The notes under the pieces are model-generated. The model was not told the origin of the DNA, made no database searches, and saw nothing but the letters and a program-made list of their open reading frames with translations. The position numbers and the translations under genes are program-made. From Desulfuromonas sp. SDB (lineage in GTDB: Bacteria; SDB-A), in the NCBI GenBank assembly GCA_001412365.1, contig LKUE01000351.1, forward strand, positions 1 through 9,041: DNA of 9,041 nucleotides, given 5' to 3'. Positions within the stretch are counted from its first letter, which is position 1. Every line of letters begins with the position of its first letter. This document shows positions 2,763 through 9,041 of the stretch, piece after piece.

Positions 2763-3815
2763 ATGCGCACAAAATCAATTCCCACCTTGTTGTCAATGTT
2801 TGGTTTAGTTCTACTGCTGAGCCTGAGTATTATTTCGTGTGGTTCAGCTTATCGGCAGGATACTGTTGAATTCATGAAAGATCTGGATCAGCCCGAAGAT
2901 AATCCCTTGAGTTTAGAAGAATTTGCCCTTCATCAAGCGGCAGAACTGGGAAATTTTCCGGTAGTACAGGATTTGGTGGATCATCAGGTTAATGTAAATG
3001 CAGTGGACCAGTATGCATGGACCGCTCTGCATTTTGCTACCAGGGAAGGATATGATACTATTGCTTCTTTTTTAATTGATCGAGGAGCTGATTTCACTAT
3101 AGCCGGTGAAACCAGTGTAGGCGGTGATTTTGCCGGATATTGGACTCCGGTACACCTGGCAGCTTGGAACGGTAGACTGCAGATATTCAAGCTGCTTACT
3201 AGCCTTGGGGCTGACCTTTCCGCAAGGGTGTGGATTGACTACGGAAGCACTCCTTTGCATTTAGCTGCAGAAAAAGGTTATTATGAAATAGTTCAGGAGT
3301 TGATAAATCAAGGAGTGGAAGTTGACAGCCGAAACGAATATGCGGAAACTCCTCTCCATCTTTCCTGTTTTGAAGGATATTATGTGACTTCCCAGGAACT
3401 GATAAATGCCGGAGCTAATGTTAATGTCCAGGATGATCTGGGGTATGCTCCTCTCCATGATGCCTGTGAGTTTAACTTTTTCGATCTGGCGGATATGCTG
3501 ATCAGATATGGTGCTGAGGTAAATATTTCCAATCATGATGGTTTAACTCCTCTTCATCTTGCCGCATCAGAAGGTAATGTTGATATAATGAGGCTTCTTT
3601 TGGACTCAGGAGCAGATATTAATCAGGCAGACGGACAGGGACAGACTCCTCTGCACCTTGCAGTTATTATGTTTGATATAGATGGTGTTGAATTTTTAGT
3701 TTCCCAGGGAGCTGATTTAAACATACAAGATAATGAGGGAAAAACCCCTTACGACATTGCTGAAGAATATGGCTATAAAGAAATAACTAACATCTTGATG
3801 TTTAATTCTATGTAG
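2763..3815 (+). CDS. Ankyrin-repeat lipoprotein
   Basis: A 350-residue protein predicted to be exported and lipid-anchored. The N-terminus has basic residues, a hydrophobic core (about residues 9-24) and a lipobox IISC with Cys26 as the likely lipidated residue, followed by Gly. After a short acidic linker come about nine ankyrin repeats from residue 50 to the end; most repeats have the TPLHLAA-type turn and a G(A/V)(D/N/E)(V/L/I)(N/D) finger. The third repeat has a longer lead-in with GETSVGGDFAGYW. There is no enzymatic domain, so the protein most likely binds another protein at the cell surface or in the periplasm; the partner is unknown. It has its own promoter and Shine-Dalgarno site, and ends 5 bp from the stop of the convergent methyltransferase gene. 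The fold and lipoprotein calls are firm; the role is not known. Confidence 0.93.
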   Translation: MRTKSIPTLLSMFGLVLLLSLSIISCGSAYRQDTVEFMKDLDQPEDNPLSLEEFALHQAAELGNFPVVQDLVDHQVNVNAVDQYAWTALHFATREGYDTIASFLIDRGADFTIAGETSVGGDFAGYWTPVHLAAWNGRLQIFKLLTSLGADLSARVWIDYGSTPLHLAAEKGYYEIVQELINQGVEVDSRNEYAETPLHLSCFEGYYVTSQELINAGANVNVQDDLGYAPLHDACEFNFFDLADMLIRYGAEVNISNHDGLTPLHLAASEGNVDIMRLLLDSGADINQADGQGQTPLHLAVIMFDIDGVEFLVSQGADLNIQDNEGKTPYDIAEEYGYKEITNILMFNSM

Positions 3816-4638: not shown

Positions 4639-5796
4639 TTAATTTTCTGTTTCCTCAATAAATGCCTGTTTAAATTTCTGGACCGCTTTGGGGAGGATGA
4701 TGCTTAACAGAGTTCCAAGTTGAATCCTGGAACCATCAACTAAAATTGACCAGATAAATCTGTTCATCAAGATAATCAATGCAATTTTATTATCAGCTAA
4801 GTCCATAACTATGTAATCGCCCCAATTAAAAAGCCTTTTATGTAAATACTCATTCATCATTTGTACTATTTCTGTAAATAGACCTGAAGATTTATCATTG
4901 GAATTCCAACTTGCTAAAGATTTTGCATCATTAACATAAATTATATCAGAATTTATTACACCAGGGGTAAATTCATTTTTAAATAACTCCATTGCTTTTA
5001 TTATTTTAATTGTGGAAGGAATTTTATCTTCATTGATTGCAATTTTATCAGGGGTTTTCACATGATTTGGTTGTATTTTACGGTTTTTTAACCCTTCCAG
5101 TATTATGTATTCCAGGGGCATTTCTATAGTTCTTTCTTCCTGATTGCAGGTATCCATTAAATCAATTTTCACATCTTCCCAGGAGACGATATCCAATGCG
5201 GAGTTCAGGGAATTTTGATTTTCTTTGTTGATCCAGTCCAAAAGCTCCAAAGGATGTTCAGGATGAATTTTACTTTTTACCGATGCATGGATCAGATCGC
5301 CGTTACGGAAGTAAATATTTCCAATTTTATCTTTGGTGGATATTCTAAGGGTAGATGTCATGTTTTCCATTGAAATTATCTGCATTAACGAACTTATTTT
5401 TTCAGGGTAATTTGTCTGGGGCTCACCGTAAATTTTTTGATTTGTAATTAATTGATATATCTTTCTAAAATCAATGGGCTTTTCAATGTAATTTAAAATA
5501 CCCAATTTTCTTATTCTTTGTCCGGTCTGCCGGTTGCCGAATGCGGTCATCACCACTACCGGTATTGTTGGATATTGCCCAATTACATAGGCAATTAATT
5601 TAAAACCATTGAGTTTGGGCATAACCAGGTCAGTAATGATAAGATCAATTTTTTGGGAATTTAAGATTTCTATGGCTTTACAGCCATTTTCCGCAGTGTG
5701 TATATAAAATTTTTTATCGGGGATATGTTTGTTCAGGAATTTTAGTAAAGATTTTATGAGCAGGTGATCATCATCTACTATTAGAATATTTTTCAT
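4639..5796 (-). CDS. Response regulator: receiver + PATAN + Roadblock-like domain
   Basis: A 385-residue signalling protein with three domains. Residues 1-120 are a CheY-like receiver with the acidic pocket Asp8-Asp10, phosphoacceptor Asp56 (ITDLVMP), Thr84 and Lys106 (EKP), all intact, so it should accept phosphate from a histidine kinase not present here. Residues about 136-240 are a PATAN (DUF4388) domain with GNIYFRNGDLIHA; it holds about 18 extra residues after HA relative to the PATAN domain at the right end of the window. Residues about 262-380 are a Roadblock/LC7-like domain with ASWNSN, divergent from the two other copies here. There is no DNA-binding output domain, so output is probably by protein contact. 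The ATG has no Shine-Dalgarno motif; its leader is nearly all A/T. It is transcribed divergently from the stand-alone Roadblock gene. Receiver and PATAN calls are firm; Roadblock is a fold-level inference. Confidence 0.9.
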   Translation of the reverse strand: MKNILIVDDDHLLIKSLLKFLNKHIPDKKFYIHTAENGCKAIEILNSQKIDLIITDLVMPKLNGFKLIAYVIGQYPTIPVVVMTAFGNRQTGQRIRKLGILNYIEKPIDFRKIYQLITNQKIYGEPQTNYPEKISSLMQIISMENMTSTLRISTKDKIGNIYFRNGDLIHASVKSKIHPEHPLELLDWINKENQNSLNSALDIVSWEDVKIDLMDTCNQEERTIEMPLEYIILEGLKNRKIQPNHVKTPDKIAINEDKIPSTIKIIKAMELFKNEFTPGVINSDIIYVNDAKSLASWNSNDKSSGLFTEIVQMMNEYLHKRLFNWGDYIVMDLADNKIALIILMNRFIWSILVDGSRIQLGTLLSIILPKAVQKFKQAFIEETEN

Positions 5797-5871
5797 AATT
5801 TTATATTAATAATTTATTTCGAAATATCCAATAACTTTGTTAATAAAATATAAATTTTCAAAATTTTTGTA

Positions 5872-5902
5872 TTAATCAATAATTTTTAAAGTTGTTGATT
5901 AA
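5872..5902. repeat. 31-bp imperfect palindrome, possible operator
   Basis: TTAATCAA (5872-5879) and TTGATTAA (5895-5902) form perfect 8-bp outer arms. Pairing continues inward so that 13 of 15 positions per arm are complementary around base 5887; the two exceptions are T/G. Its place between divergent genes suits a binding site for a dimeric regulator. Chance is a real alternative in such AT-rich DNA, although the paired C/G inside each arm argues somewhat against it. Confidence 0.4.
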
Positions 5903-5988
5903 AATTTAATTGTAAATAATTTAATTATGTGTAAAATAATTTTAAATGATTTGAAAAGAAAATTTTAAAACTATAACTATCAAGGATT

Positions 5989-5993
5989 GGAGG
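5989..5993 (+). promoter_or_regulatory. Ribosome binding site of the stand-alone Roadblock gene
   Basis: GGAGG with a 5-base spacer to ATG at 5999. This decides the start: the in-frame TTG at 5987 would bury the site inside the coding sequence. The local sequence GGAGGATGCTATGAATGTAC closely matches the internal site at 8735-8716 on the minus strand in the paralogous gene. Confidence 0.8.
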
Positions 5994-5998
5994 ATGCT

Positions 5999-6373
5999 AT
6001 GAATGTACAGTTATTACAGGATTCTGTAGAGGTGTTGAAAACTAATCTGGGGGGGGGATTATTAGCTACAGATATATTTTCAACAAATGATTATCAATCA
6101 GTTGCAGGTTGGAACTCCAATCCCACCGCCTGTGTTCTGTTTGGACAAATTGCCACTTCCATGGATAAAAGCCTTAAGGACAGCGGATTTCCCGGTTTGG
6201 GAAAATATTTTCTTCTGCATTTAGTGGATGAAAAGATGGTTATTGTAATTCCCATGGGTAATTATATGTGGGGAATGTTAATTGATGGCAAAAGAGTGGC
6301 ATTAGGATTAGTATTGAATGTTGCCCTTCCTAAAGCAATATCTGCCTTTGAAGAGGCGTTAATAGCAAAATAG
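5999..6373 (+). CDS. Stand-alone Roadblock/LC7-like protein
   Basis: A 124-residue single-domain protein, MNVQLLQ...EEALIAK. It is about 65% identical by eye (80 of 123) to the C-terminal domain of the PATAN gene at the right end and more distantly related to the C-terminal domain of the receiver gene. Shared hallmarks are LL.TDIF, SVAGWNSNPTACVLF (residues 37-51), SGFP.LGKY, IPM..Y.W, DGK and a C-terminal ALPKAI.AFEEAL helix. The alternation of strands between flanking helices fits a Roadblock/LC7 (longin-type) fold, whose members form dimers and scaffold GTPases or receptors; no GTPase gene is seen in the window. A run of nine G (6049-6057) lies in codons 17-20; loss or gain of one G gives a stop within a few codons. 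The next gene follows after 10 bp. Family inference is moderate; that it is a real gene is near certain. Confidence 0.85.
   Translation: MNVQLLQDSVEVLKTNLGGGLLATDIFSTNDYQSVAGWNSNPTACVLFGQIATSMDKSLKDSGFPGLGKYFLLHLVDEKMVIVIPMGNYMWGMLIDGKRVALGLVLNVALPKAISAFEEALIAK
6049..6057 (+). repeat. Nine-G homopolymer inside a coding region
   Basis: Nine consecutive G bases encode part of Leu-Gly-Gly-Gly in the stand-alone Roadblock gene. The paralogous position in the minus-strand gene reads TTGGGACCGGG and is not homopolymeric. A G tract this long stands out in AT-rich DNA and is of a length known to slip during replication in some bacteria. Confidence 0.95.
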
Positions 6374-6383
6374 AGAGGTTTAC

Positions 6384-6578
6384 ATGGGAATGCAATTAAA
6401 AAAGATTTACCAGCTTGTTGAGGAACACGGAGGGGTTGCAGCAAGGTTGAAACTAGCGGAAAGAACAGGAATAAGTCAAAATAAAGCAGAAACCATTCAG
6501 GATAAACCTGAATATATTGATAATTTTAAAAAGATAGCTACTGAAATTTTAGGTCAGGATATCTCTCAATATATGTAA
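6384..6578 (+). CDS. 64-residue protein, paralog of the 131-residue minus-strand protein
   Basis: A small, probably helical protein that I do not recognise. It is about half identical (30 of 60) to the first 60 residues of the protein at 7942-8337. Shared pattern: IY.LVE.HGG...R...A..T..S..KA....D.PEYI..F.KIA..IL..DI. Two or three helices with an HGG turn are suggested; no metal-binding, membrane or catalytic motif is seen. ATG at 6384 has a GAGAGG site at 6373-6378 that overlaps the previous stop codon, so the gene is in an operon with the stand-alone Roadblock gene. Since the paralog also follows a Roadblock gene, the two products probably act together, perhaps as a complex. The duplication with conserved sequence is strong evidence for a real gene. 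Confidence 0.85.
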   Translation: MGMQLKKIYQLVEEHGGVAARLKLAERTGISQNKAETIQDKPEYIDNFKKIATEILGQDISQYM

Positions 6579-6611
6579 TATTATTTATTTTTTTTTATTG
6601 TTTATTCGATA
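6579..6611. terminator. T-rich convergent junction with T9 run
   Basis: The 33 bp between the two converging stop codons are nearly all A/T, with nine T at 6588-6596 on the plus strand. A short AT-only stem (AATAT 6568-6572 with ATATT 6578-6582) precedes the T run. This could end plus-strand transcription, but the stem is too weak for a confident intrinsic terminator. Confidence 0.3.
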
Positions 6612-7949
6612 TTATTCCTCGTCTTTAGAGTGCCTCCGGTAGTATACTTCCAGGAAATGGTGGCATTGTTGAGGGCGATAAAGTCCGTTGAGAATTGCTT
6701 TAGCCATTGCTTCACAGGACATGTATCCGCAACAGGCGCAGTTTTTAATATCTTCCGGTTCGAATTTGTACATTTCCTCGTATAACGCCTTAATTCCTTC
6801 CTCATCTGGATCTTCCAGCTGAGTGAAATATTCTGATTTATCTGAATACTCTCTGGAAAAATCAATATCTTCCATAGATTGAAGCAGTTTTTCCAAATTA
6901 TCCAGTTCTTGGTCAGTGCTGTAATTTTTCTTTTTATGTTCTTCTAAACGGTCGTCTTGGATTTTTAGTATTTCATCAGTAGTGCGCTCATCGTAAATTG
7001 TTCCCGTACCCCGGTTACATCCGTGCAGGCAGTTGAGAATGTCCACTAAAACCACTTCGGATTTACCGCTTTCAATTTCTTTTTCCAGTTCTTCAAAAAA
7101 TTCTTCGTAAATTTCAACACCTTCAGTTCTTCTCACTTGATGCAGTTTTAAAGGCACATTGTAGCGTTTAAAGGTTTCATACAATCCCCCCGGTTGGGAA
7201 TAAAGTAAACCTCTCTCCGCTTCCATGGGACCGTCAAAATCAGCTTGGGGGAAAGAAGATAATGCGATGTTGTTTGCATCCATATATTTTTTCAAATTGG
7301 CTATAGTCACATTGTACTGGATTCTGTTTTTGGTTTTGGGATCGGTAAACTCCCTTTTTTTAGCAATACATGGGCTGATAAAAGCAAGTTTGTAACCAGG
7401 ATGGTGTTTATGCACCCAGCAGGCGATATCCATTACCGGACTTCCGGTGGGGGCAAGATATTTTATCAGATGGGGTTTGTAAATTTCAATAAAATTGACT
7501 ACAGCAGGGCAGGGTTGGGCGATGATAGGAGTATTGGCTCCTTTTTTATAAGCTTGAAGATATTGGTAGGTGGTAATTTCTGCTCCGAAAGAAACATCAA
7601 AATTTTTCTGCACTCCAATGGATTTCAACCAGCCCAGTAAATTGTGAAGTTGACCGGGAAAGTTCACTGCAGCAGCGGGAGCAACCAGACAGGCAATTTT
7701 TTCTCCTTTTTTTAAATCTTCCATAAATTGTTCAGTGTCATCTATTATATATCTGGCATCATGAGTGCAAGCACGTATACAGTTTCCGCATCCGATGCAC
7801 AGATCATGATTAACGGTGATACCCTTTTCTAAATCGGAGGCATCGTTGCAATATTTCACCGGACATACCTGGATACAAGCGTGGCACTGAACACATTTAT
7901 CACTGTCCACATCAACAATTGCAGGTAAGCTAAAAGTGTTATCACTCAT
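6612..7949 (-). CDS. [FeFe]-hydrogenase H-domain protein, putative sensory type
   Basis: A 445-residue cytoplasmic iron-sulfur protein. The N-terminus has two ferredoxin-type [4Fe-4S] motifs: Cys19/22/25/29-Pro and Cys51/54/57/61. Residues about 85-320 form a hydrogenase large-subunit-like H-domain with all four [4Fe-4S]H ligands: Cys147 (PCPAVVNFIE), Cys194 (SPCIAKKRE) and Cys307/Cys311 (NCLHGC). The position of the proton-relay Cys just before the first ligand (Cys299 in Clostridium pasteurianum CpI) is Pro146; the Met before the second ligand motif is Ser192 and that before the third is Leu305. Lys197 and Glu200 of the second motif are kept. The C-terminus has a CX2CX4CX16C cluster motif (Cys404, 407, 412, 429; NCACCGYMSC). 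This layout resembles group C/D putative sensory hydrogenases rather than catalytic HydA. No PAS, kinase or phosphatase domain is attached. It is last in the minus-strand operon and overlaps the preceding gene by 8 bases (ATGAGTGA). Confidence 0.88.
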   Translation of the reverse strand: MSDNTFSLPAIVDVDSDKCVQCHACIQVCPVKYCNDASDLEKGITVNHDLCIGCGNCIRACTHDARYIIDDTEQFMEDLKKGEKIACLVAPAAAVNFPGQLHNLLGWLKSIGVQKNFDVSFGAEITTYQYLQAYKKGANTPIIAQPCPAVVNFIEIYKPHLIKYLAPTGSPVMDIACWVHKHHPGYKLAFISPCIAKKREFTDPKTKNRIQYNVTIANLKKYMDANNIALSSFPQADFDGPMEAERGLLYSQPGGLYETFKRYNVPLKLHQVRRTEGVEIYEEFFEELEKEIESGKSEVVLVDILNCLHGCNRGTGTIYDERTTDEILKIQDDRLEEHKKKNYSTDQELDNLEKLLQSMEDIDFSREYSDKSEYFTQLEDPDEEGIKALYEEMYKFEPEDIKNCACCGYMSCEAMAKAILNGLYRPQQCHHFLEVYYRRHSKDEE

Positions 7950-8337
7950 GGCGTTCCTCCTCTGAAAGTTTTGTATCAGGTTGATAAGGTCTTAAATTAT
8001 TTTGACCATAAACATCTGAATCCTGTTTGTATTGAGTCTGGTTAATCTTTGGAGGGTAGCTGTCAGTGGCAGGTTGAGTAGTGGTAGTGGAGGGGGATTC
8101 AGCAGGACCTGACTGACTGAAGGTCAAACTGGGGTGTTTTTGCTTTAGTTCTGCACCAATATCTTTTTGCAGAATCAGGTTGGCAATTTTAACGAAACTT
8201 TGGATATATTCCGGCCGATCTTCCACTGCGGCAGCTTTGCTACTGCTGACTTTGGTCTTTATGGCAAATCTCATTCTACCCTTAAGACCACCATGATATT
8301 CGACCAGTTTATAGATGTCAGATAAAATAACTCCCAT
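7942..8337 (-). CDS. Small paralogous protein with Pro/Thr/Gln-rich tail
   Basis: A 131-residue protein in two parts. Residues 1-60 match the 64-residue plus-strand protein at about 50% identity (LSDIYKLVEYHGG, RPEYIQSFVKIA). Residues about 65-131 are low-complexity and polar, rich in Ser, Thr, Pro, Gln and Asn (for example SPSTTTTQPATDSYPP), and look disordered; the plus-strand paralog has no such tail. No known domain is recognised. ATG at 8337 is chosen from the Shine-Dalgarno site 6 bases upstream and from co-linearity with the paralog's start (both begin MG). It lies 16 bp after the PATAN-Roadblock gene and its last codons overlap the start of the hydrogenase-like gene, so all three should be co-expressed. 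A possible role is to link the Roadblock protein to the iron-sulfur protein; this is inferred from gene order only. Confidence 0.88.
   Translation of the reverse strand: MGVILSDIYKLVEYHGGLKGRMRFAIKTKVSSSKAAAVEDRPEYIQSFVKIANLILQKDIGAELKQKHPSLTFSQSGPAESPSTTTTQPATDSYPPKINQTQYKQDSDVYGQNNLRPYQPDTKLSEEERHE
7956..7961 (-). promoter_or_regulatory. Ribosome binding site of the hydrogenase-like gene
   Basis: AGGAGG on the minus strand, 6 bases before ATG at 7949, inside the end of the preceding coding region. With the 8-base gene overlap it indicates coupled but efficient independent initiation. Confidence 0.85.
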
Positions 8338-8343
8338 AATATT

Positions 8344-8349
8344 CCTCCT
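8344..8349 (-). promoter_or_regulatory. Ribosome binding site of the extended small-protein gene
   Basis: AGGAGG on the minus strand with a 6-base spacer to ATG at 8337, located in the 16-bp gap after the upstream stop codon. It fixes the start. Confidence 0.85.
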
Positions 8350-8353
8350 AAAA

Positions 8354-9041
8354 TTAACCTATTAAAGCTTCTTCAAATGCTTCAATAGCTTTGGGTAAAA
8401 CAACATTGAGTAGCAAGCCCAGAGGAGATTTTTTCCCGTCCAGCAGTACCAGCCAGATGTATTCGTCCATGGGAATAATCAAAACCATTTTACCGTCCAC
8501 TAGATCTAACAACAGGTACTTTCCCAACTCGGGGAAACCACTTTCCTGTAAAGTGGTATTCATCATGGTGATGATTTGGGTAAATAGTGCGCAGGCGGTG
8601 GGATTGGAATTCCATCCCGCTATGGATTGAGCATCGGACAAAGTAAATATGTCAGTGCTTAATAATCCCGGTCCCAAATTTGATTTTATCACCTCAATTG
8701 CTTCATTTAATTTTGGTACATTCATCTCAACCTCCTCCTGTATATTTCTTGTTTTATCAATCTGATTTTGATTGATCTGTGATTTTTCATCTTTATCTTT
8801 AAATGCCTGAAGCAAAATATTTTCCAAAGCCATATTGATAGTGTTTCCCTTGAACGTGCAGTTATCTATTAAATCAATAGTAACTCCATCCCAGGTCACT
8901 ATATCCATTGCCGCTTCTAATCCTTTTTTATTCTTAGTCTCGGCATGGATGAGTTCTCCATCCTTGATATAAAGATGACCGATGTCTTTTCCTCTGGTAA
9001 CGGTTAAAGTGTATGAAATTTTTTCCATACCTATTATCTGT
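8354..9041 (-). CDS. PATAN + Roadblock-like protein (5' partial)
   Basis: The frame stays open to the right edge: the four codons before the first visible Met read QIIG, matching QIIS in the PATAN domain of the receiver gene (MQIISMEN versus QIIGMEK). The gene therefore starts outside the window, probably with a receiver domain as in its paralog. Of 228 visible residues, about 1-95 are PATAN (DUF4388; IGHLYIKDGELIHA, AAMDIVTWDGVTIDLID), about 96-105 and onward a polar linker, and the last 123 a Roadblock/LC7-like domain (IAGWNSNPTACALF, SGFPELGKY, LPKAIEAFEEAL) about 65% identical to the stand-alone plus-strand protein. Inside the linker is a strong Shine-Dalgarno and ATG that could start the Roadblock domain separately. 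It leads the operon with the small protein and the hydrogenase-like protein, so it probably carries their signal. Confidence 0.88.
   Translation of the reverse strand, partial: QIIGMEKISYTLTVTRGKDIGHLYIKDGELIHAETKNKKGLEAAMDIVTWDGVTIDLIDNCTFKGNTINMALENILLQAFKDKDEKSQINQNQIDKTRNIQEEVEMNVPKLNEAIEVIKSNLGPGLLSTDIFTLSDAQSIAGWNSNPTACALFTQIITMMNTTLQESGFPELGKYLLLDLVDGKMVLIIPMDEYIWLVLLDGKKSPLGLLLNVVLPKAIEAFEEALIG
8723..8739 (-). promoter_or_regulatory. Internal ribosome binding site and start codon
   Basis: Within the PATAN-Roadblock coding region the minus strand reads AGGAGGAGG (8739-8731), five bases TTGAG, then ATG (8725-8723), in frame and exactly at the domain boundary. Initiation here would make a 123-residue Roadblock protein beginning MNVPKLNE, co-linear with the stand-alone MNVQLLQD protein. 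The match to consensus is as good as any start in the window. Confidence 0.65.

Follow-up and report, generated by a model that had tools for sequence, protein, structure and literature searches.

How could a hydrogenase-like sensor that carries no output domain of its own pass on its signal? The question is raised by a 9,041-nucleotide stretch of DNA from Desulfuromonas sp. SDB (contig LKUE01000351.1; here the window), which is the whole of contig C351 in a 3.1-Mb genome of 433 contigs (G000). In the window, a gene for a sensory-type [FeFe]-hydrogenase, designated HydS, lies among genes for Roadblock-fold proteins, PATAN proteins, and a small adaptor-like protein. The reading that we favor is a modular platform made up of an interchangeable sensor, an adaptor that resembles the N-terminal part of H-NOX proteins, and a pair of Roadblock proteins, the sensor in the window being of the H2 type; we consider this reading evenly poised between right and wrong.

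The sensory-type hydrogenase and its surroundings

Three Roadblock-fold domains are encoded in the window, and both small genes stand directly after a Roadblock gene. One of the small genes (7942-8337) overlaps the HydS gene by 8 bases, and the other (6384-6578) ends 33 bases from the 3' end of the HydS gene. The initial annotation had described this arrangement, and the open reading frames, the fold, and the sequence identities bear it out. The features are listed below.

4639-5796, minus strand: receiver (REC)-PATAN-Roadblock protein of 385 residues, from its open reading frame, Pfam, and identity to other copies; a divergent Roadblock copy without an internal start.
5797-5998, no strand: divergent intergenic region between two Roadblock transcription units, from reading of the sequence.
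5999-6373, plus strand: stand-alone Roadblock-fold protein of 124 residues, from its open reading frame, an ATG with an upstream GGAGG, and a structural match.
6384-6578, plus strand: small adaptor-like protein of 64 residues, similar to the helical subdomain at the N terminus of H-NOX.
6612-7949, minus strand: HydS, 445 residues, with two [4Fe-4S] motifs, an H-domain, and a C-terminal Cx2Cx4Cx16C motif; no output domain.
7942-8337, minus strand: small adaptor-like protein of 131 residues, with a conserved helical domain of ~60 residues and a tail rich in Ser, Thr, and Pro.
8354-9040, minus strand: PATAN (DUF4388)-Roadblock protein of 228 residues, its 5' end cut by the contig edge.
8723-8738, minus strand: internal Shine-Dalgarno sequence (AGGAGGAGG region) and ATG before the Roadblock domain, a possible second start that would give a free Roadblock domain.

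The four H-cluster cysteines of HydS are intact (C147, C194, C307, and C311, in three ligand loops), and together with two N-terminal [4Fe-4S] motifs and a C-terminal FeS motif (C404-x2-C407-x4-C412-x16-C429) they give the layout of group C2. In a tree of 14 sequences, HydS grouped with hydrogenases fused to a methyl-accepting chemotaxis protein (MCP) domain with a support of 99/99, and kinase-fused proteins fell outside; the tree included one presumed group D sequence, from contig C206 of the same genome, on a very long branch. MCP-fused [FeFe]-hydrogenases match HydDB group C2, which is putatively chemotactic (PMC5037454). By tree and motifs, HydS thus appears to be of the sensory type, as the initial annotation had supposed, and like group C2, and the HydF and HydG maturases are present in the genome. 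The protein ends 16 residues past its last cysteine, and neither an MCP domain in HydS nor che genes in the window were found among the open reading frames or by Pfam. HydS lacks the output domain that is present in its clade-mates, and because it has no methyl-accepting chemotaxis output, we call it C2-like and do not file it as C2.

The C2 relatives thus share with HydS the two N-terminal [4Fe-4S] motifs, the H-domain, the C-terminal FeS motif, and the clade, but they carry a C-terminal MCP domain and some lie in che operons, whereas HydS ends after its FeS motif and adjoins Roadblock and small-protein genes (PMC5037454). The MCP-fused hydrogenases of G121 and G167, for example, in which the MCP and H-domains were assigned by Pfam, lie in operons with CheA, CheW, CheB, and CheR-like neighbors (read by eye). 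Fusions of H-domain and MCP at L086 4081-6303 (minus strand), L088 4934-7738 (plus strand), L087 4147-6021, and L089 4731-6530 are candidate H2 chemoreceptors in their own right.

HydS also has features in common with TamHydS of group D/M2e, namely the absence of PAS and output domains, the Cx2Cx4Cx16C motif, and the residues at certain key positions. At those corresponding, by motif position, to C299, M353, and M497 of CpI, HydS has Pro, Ser, and Leu, and TamHydS has likewise lost C299 and has Ser and Leu at the methionine positions (PMC8163306, PMC13104023). TamHydS differs in being encoded upstream of a bifurcating HydABC, a place that in G000 is taken by the HydS-like gene of C206 (27% identical to HydS). 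The C206 locus (L049 65-8000) contains NuoE-like, DRTGG, PHP, and HATPase genes upstream of HydABC-like genes. Assignment of the C206 gene to the TmHydS type was considered and rejected; the gene is more like a TamHydS (group D) operon, because it has no PAS domain and is followed by HydC-, HydB-, and HydA-like genes.

Neighbors of the small protein within and beyond the family

The phylum was compared by way of four species (G000 to G003), all of one family. Wherever this HydS occurs, in G000, G002, and G003, it adjoins the small protein (three of three genomes). The HydS of G002 and G003, with 78% identity, is encoded at a contig edge; the stub before it reads as the C terminus of a small protein (KISEEILNKNIDEYLRDKLAAM and EILGKSIDDDLREGF), the contig breaking inside the small gene. 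The lack of Roadblock genes in these two genomes was not taken as a true absence, because both contigs end within that gene, and the missing genes would most simply be an assembly gap. A pattern scan of the genome contigs with HydS, for which the patterns were poor, matched only the G002 locus and one Bacilli locus.

The gene order in G002 and G003 is small protein, HydS, and a DUF6754 gene. In G001, it is histidine kinase, NtrC, REC-PATAN-Roadblock, small protein, and the DUF6754 gene, and that genome has the REC-PATAN-Roadblock and the small protein with no HydS, HydF, or HydG. Judged by synteny, either G001 lost HydS or the others acquired it, and the small protein was kept in either case. 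REC-PATAN-Roadblock adjoins the small protein in two genera of the family, and all four of the complete small genes of the phylum begin within 30 bases after a Roadblock gene. In each of the three relatives, HydS or the small protein is followed by the DUF6754 membrane gene and a conserved run of membrane genes, an arrangement not seen in the window (L018 7895-9181, L048 1547-2848, and L047 5634-6941).

Other sensors occupy similar positions in other loci. On contig C95 of G000, the order is the end of an NtrC gene, REC-PATAN-Roadblock, Roadblock, small protein, a V4R-like pair of 173 and 205 residues, a cysteine-desulfurase-like gene, and a gene for 89 residues. The V4R-like pair is homologous to genes of G260, G301, and G324, with 31 to 60% identity, and in two other phyla the small protein lies beside V4R-type proteins in G260, G301, G010, G324 (twice), and G322; the scores for V4R clear the cut-off in G322 and G324 C91 and fall slightly short of it in G301 and G010. 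A set of five genes, for a cysteine-desulfurase-like enzyme, a protein of ~90 residues, the small protein, and two V4R-like proteins, is found in two phyla (L016 1-2742, minus strand; L136 1714-4569, plus strand) and has the look of a distinct unit for sensing sulfur or a ligand. In G297, a REC-PATAN protein and a PAS kinase flank the small protein, with NtrC next after the kinase, and G300 has, near a REC-PATAN gene, a small-protein copy interrupted by an internal stop. On contig C208 of G000, an H-NOX gene (129.7 bits against HNOB; the product has YKSER and aligns at the proximal His) begins 25 bases after a Roadblock gene, and no separate small gene lies between the two. H-NOX proteins are known sensors of nitric oxide. 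Four tandem H-NOX-like genes occur in G260 (L129 6199-8623, minus strand).

Among 14 small-protein loci, then, four adjoin HydS, all of them in this phylum, seven adjoin V4R-type genes, and one adjoins a PAS kinase; outside the phylum, the small protein was not found beside HydS. From the small-protein and Roadblock neighbors across these loci, HydS, V4R, and H-NOX therefore appear to be alternatives that fill one type of position. The initial annotation had proposed a linked set of genes serving H2 sensing. The linkage stands, in that HydS adjoins the small protein wherever this HydS occurs and REC-PATAN adjoins the small protein in two phyla. A dedicated H2 pathway is too narrow a description in view of the V4R-type, PAS kinase, and H-NOX neighbors and of the HydS relatives elsewhere, which are fused to chemoreceptor or kinase domains. 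The annotation had also held that relatives lying mostly away from hydrogenase-like genes would speak against its proposal, and outside the phylum this is indeed where they lie. Because the sensors vary among loci, the data are described better by a modular platform, here equipped with an H2-type sensor, than by a dedicated H2 system.

The same neighborhoods might instead reflect two unrelated modules, a small-protein/V4R-type unit and a Roadblock/REC-PATAN unit, that were joined in this phylum, with HydS an enzyme or an orphan sensor that is merely cotranscribed. We consider this doubtful. The small protein does occur beside V4R genes without Roadblock in other phyla, Roadblock does occur without the small protein in G046 and on C208, and the HydS relatives elsewhere have neither. 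However, the complete small genes of the phylum all keep their close spacing after a Roadblock gene, REC-PATAN and the small protein adjoin again in the phylum of G297, and G001 has kept the rest of the unit without HydS.

Folds of the Roadblock and small proteins

Over the window, Pfam recognized a receiver, two DUF4388/PATAN domains, two Fer4 motifs, Fe_hyd_lg_C, and the C-terminal FeS motif, the PATAN (DUF4388, PF14332) matches scoring 42.9 and 34.3 bits against a curated cut-off of 25. Neither Pfam nor NCBIfam gave anything above the cut-off for the Roadblock domains, and Pfam Robl_LC7 (PF03259) matched none of the three window copies at an E value of ≤10. An AlphaFold model of the stand-alone Roadblock protein was made from an alignment of the three window copies (5999-6370; predicted local distance difference test score [pLDDT], 75). 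Its best structural match was MglB (Z 11.7; root mean square deviation [rmsd], 3.4; 113 residues), and it also matched an Asgard Roadblock (Z 11.4) and Ragulator subunits (Z 8 to 10). The stand-alone copy shares 65% and 34% identity with the other two copies of the window. Since no Pfam model matches and the Z score with MglB is 11.7, the Roadblock identity rests on fold, and membership in the Roadblock/LC7 superfamily is held by the predicted structure and not by a family model.

The product of 8354-9040 is 53% identical overall to the REC-PATAN-Roadblock protein of C95 and near-identical across the PATAN part. Because this near-identity includes its first residues, the gene is most likely a REC-PATAN-Roadblock gene truncated by the contig end. 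The initial annotation had set a Roadblock domain behind PATAN apart from one behind receiver-PATAN; the domain pair is there, and the separate architecture probably is not.

A strong Shine-Dalgarno sequence and an ATG stand exactly before the Roadblock domain in both the window PATAN-Roadblock gene and the REC-PATAN-Roadblock gene of G001 (L018 9629-10726, minus strand) (CAGGAGGAGGTTGAGATGAAT; AAAAGGAGGATAACATGGAT). Such a site is present at 9 of the 424 internal in-frame ATGs of these loci. The fused genes without an internal start (at 4639 in the window, on C95, and in G046) each have a separate Roadblock gene adjoining, including in G046, of a foreign phylum, where the free Roadblock gene adjoins a REC-PATAN-Roadblock gene. 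Fused and free Roadblock domains thus both appear to be provided in five of five cases, a rule that is suggestive only, because both internal starts are homologous.

The MglB match raises a further explanation, that of an MglB-like system in which the Roadblock pair would act on an MglA-type GTPase encoded elsewhere, for polarity or pili, with HydS as the H2 input. That MglB is the best structural match would agree with this, as would the action of PATAN response regulators on type IV pili in cyanobacteria (PMC7690835) and the chemoreceptors among the HydS relatives. We think it unlikely, as no Ras-like GTPase was recognized among the open reading frames of the window or of the Roadblock loci, no GTPase gene was noticed beside the loci read (no genome-wide MglA search was made), and the NtrC neighbors point to transcription.

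The two small proteins of the window are 47% identical to each other and have relatives in three phyla, so the small genes are real. Pfam and NCBIfam contained no match to them above the cut-off, a PDB sequence search with the small-protein profile returned chance matches only, and no relatives were found among viral contigs. The predicted structure has three helices (pLDDT, 88). H-NOX dominated the Foldseek matches of this model at an E value of about 1, and upon structural realignment the top 16 rows were all residues 2-70 of H-NOX (Z up to 7.1; rmsd, 2.3; 64/64 residues), the coverage of the small protein being 64/64 residues, with 63 in one row. A profile of 25 H-NOX N termini was compared with six and then eleven small proteins, and the score rose as independent small-protein sequences were added, from 19.6 with six to 22.9 (P 2.6e-4) with eleven. 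The match is colinear (4-63 to 5-66), with an hhalign probability of 42%. None of 300 column shuffles reached 22.9 (maximum, 16.4), and windows of the HydS and Roadblock alignments gave at most 16.1. These sequence and model comparisons support a resemblance of the small protein to the N-terminal helical subdomain of H-NOX, at a level below that normal for homology.

The gene logic agrees with this likeness, because the separate small gene is absent beside H-NOX and present beside V4R-type genes, and V4R/TRAPPC3 and H-NOX have a common fold (PMC10933270). H-NOX and V4R sensors both occur as neighbors of the small protein or of Roadblock. The small protein differs from them in being a separate chain of 64 residues without the heme-binding core, with its proximal His and YxSxR, that the C208 H-NOX possesses. 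That the small protein is instead a DNA-binding helix-turn-helix (HTH) regulator, with Roadblock and PATAN only coregulated neighbors and HydS signaling through another partner, is improbable: XRE-type HTH is the next fold (Z 4.9, 57 residues) and Pfam gave weak sub-threshold matches to winged-HTH families (E 0.036), but the 16 best rows are all H-NOX and the HTH rows have lower Z scores over mostly 54 to 57 residues, the H-NOX profile match stands above all 300 shuffles, and the small-protein neighbors are sensors and not one regulated pathway.

Elsewhere in the window, and outside the finding, an ankyrin-repeat lipoprotein-like gene (2763-3815) adjoins a pyruvate phosphate dikinase gene (1-2637). 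A promoter and terminator scan of the sequence gave a number of sites not above that of shuffled sequences, and an Rfam scan matched nothing.

A proposed modular platform for sensor input

For the modular platform, we infer each step beyond gene adjacency, from H2 sensing through docking to output. The constant part would be the Roadblock pair, that is, REC-PATAN-Roadblock and a free Roadblock whose source is either a separate gene or, probably, an internal start. Beside this pair an exchangeable sensor would be attached, which in the window would be HydS, without an output domain of its own. Reaction of H2 with HydS would alter the contact of HydS with the small protein, and the small protein, as a coupling piece that resembles the helical signaling subdomain of H-NOX, would dock on the Roadblock dimer and change the state or the partners of REC-PATAN, which would also integrate a phosphorylation signal. 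Output would probably run via PATAN partners (which in known cases act on type IV pili or polarity), the adjoining NtrC-type regulator of the relatives, or both. By analogy with TamHydS, the signal is more likely to be a conformational change than a flow of electrons, because H2 is reported to induce secondary-structure changes in that protein and to leave its C-terminal cluster unreduced (PMC13104023).

Several observations weigh against the platform. HydS beside Roadblock is directly visible only in G000, because in G002 and G003 the small gene runs off the contig. The Roadblock family is rare, occurring in 3 of 290 family-spread genomes, and in G046 neither a sensor nor a small protein lies beside the Roadblock genes. 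The C-terminal part of the REC-PATAN protein of G297 did not match the Roadblock profile. The H-NOX resemblance is under the usual confidence (E about 1, probability 42%, Z under 8). Finally, above-cut-off matches to HydF and HydG come from G000, G002, and G003, G001 giving none, a distribution identical to that of the HydS orthologue, but the argument from this co-occurrence is weakened because some of these genomes have other [FeFe]-hydrogenase genes (the HydS-like gene and then HydABC-like genes on C206 of G000; a HydA-like gene in G003).

In design, the nearest known systems are the actinobacterial conservons (AGPS), operons in which genes for a sensor-type protein and an MglB-type Roadblock likewise stand together with one for another protein whose role is unknown; their core includes a Ras-like GTPase and a histidine-kinase-like protein, whereas the window set has the H-NOX-N-like small protein and no GTPase seen alongside (PMC13343842, PMC4316618). 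In PixD-PixE, too, a sensor acts on a PATAN-type response regulator, the sensor being a BLUF photoreceptor and the stimulus light instead of H2 (PMC7690835). The sensory hydrogenase, PATAN, and the Roadblock fold are thus known parts. We know of no Roadblock domain or adaptor in PixD-PixE, and a literature search of incomplete coverage found no paper that joins a sensory hydrogenase with Roadblock.

It is possible, and we suggest it tentatively, that these loci represent an undescribed signaling class, in which a Roadblock/PATAN platform would take HydS (H2 type), H-NOX (NO/O2 type), ligand-sensing V4R proteins, and PAS kinases as interchangeable sensors inside the cell by way of a detached H-NOX-type helical subdomain, which would be a partner for hydrogenases without output. 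How sensory [FeFe]-hydrogenases that lack an output domain transfer their signal is an open question, and a search for their partners has been named as a critical next step (PMC13104023); the locus names two candidates, the 64-residue protein and the 124-residue Roadblock protein. It further suggests that the N-terminal subdomain of H-NOX may exist as a separate, exchangeable adaptor, one through which Roadblock scaffolds would be linked to sensing by H-NOX, V4R, and hydrogenases.

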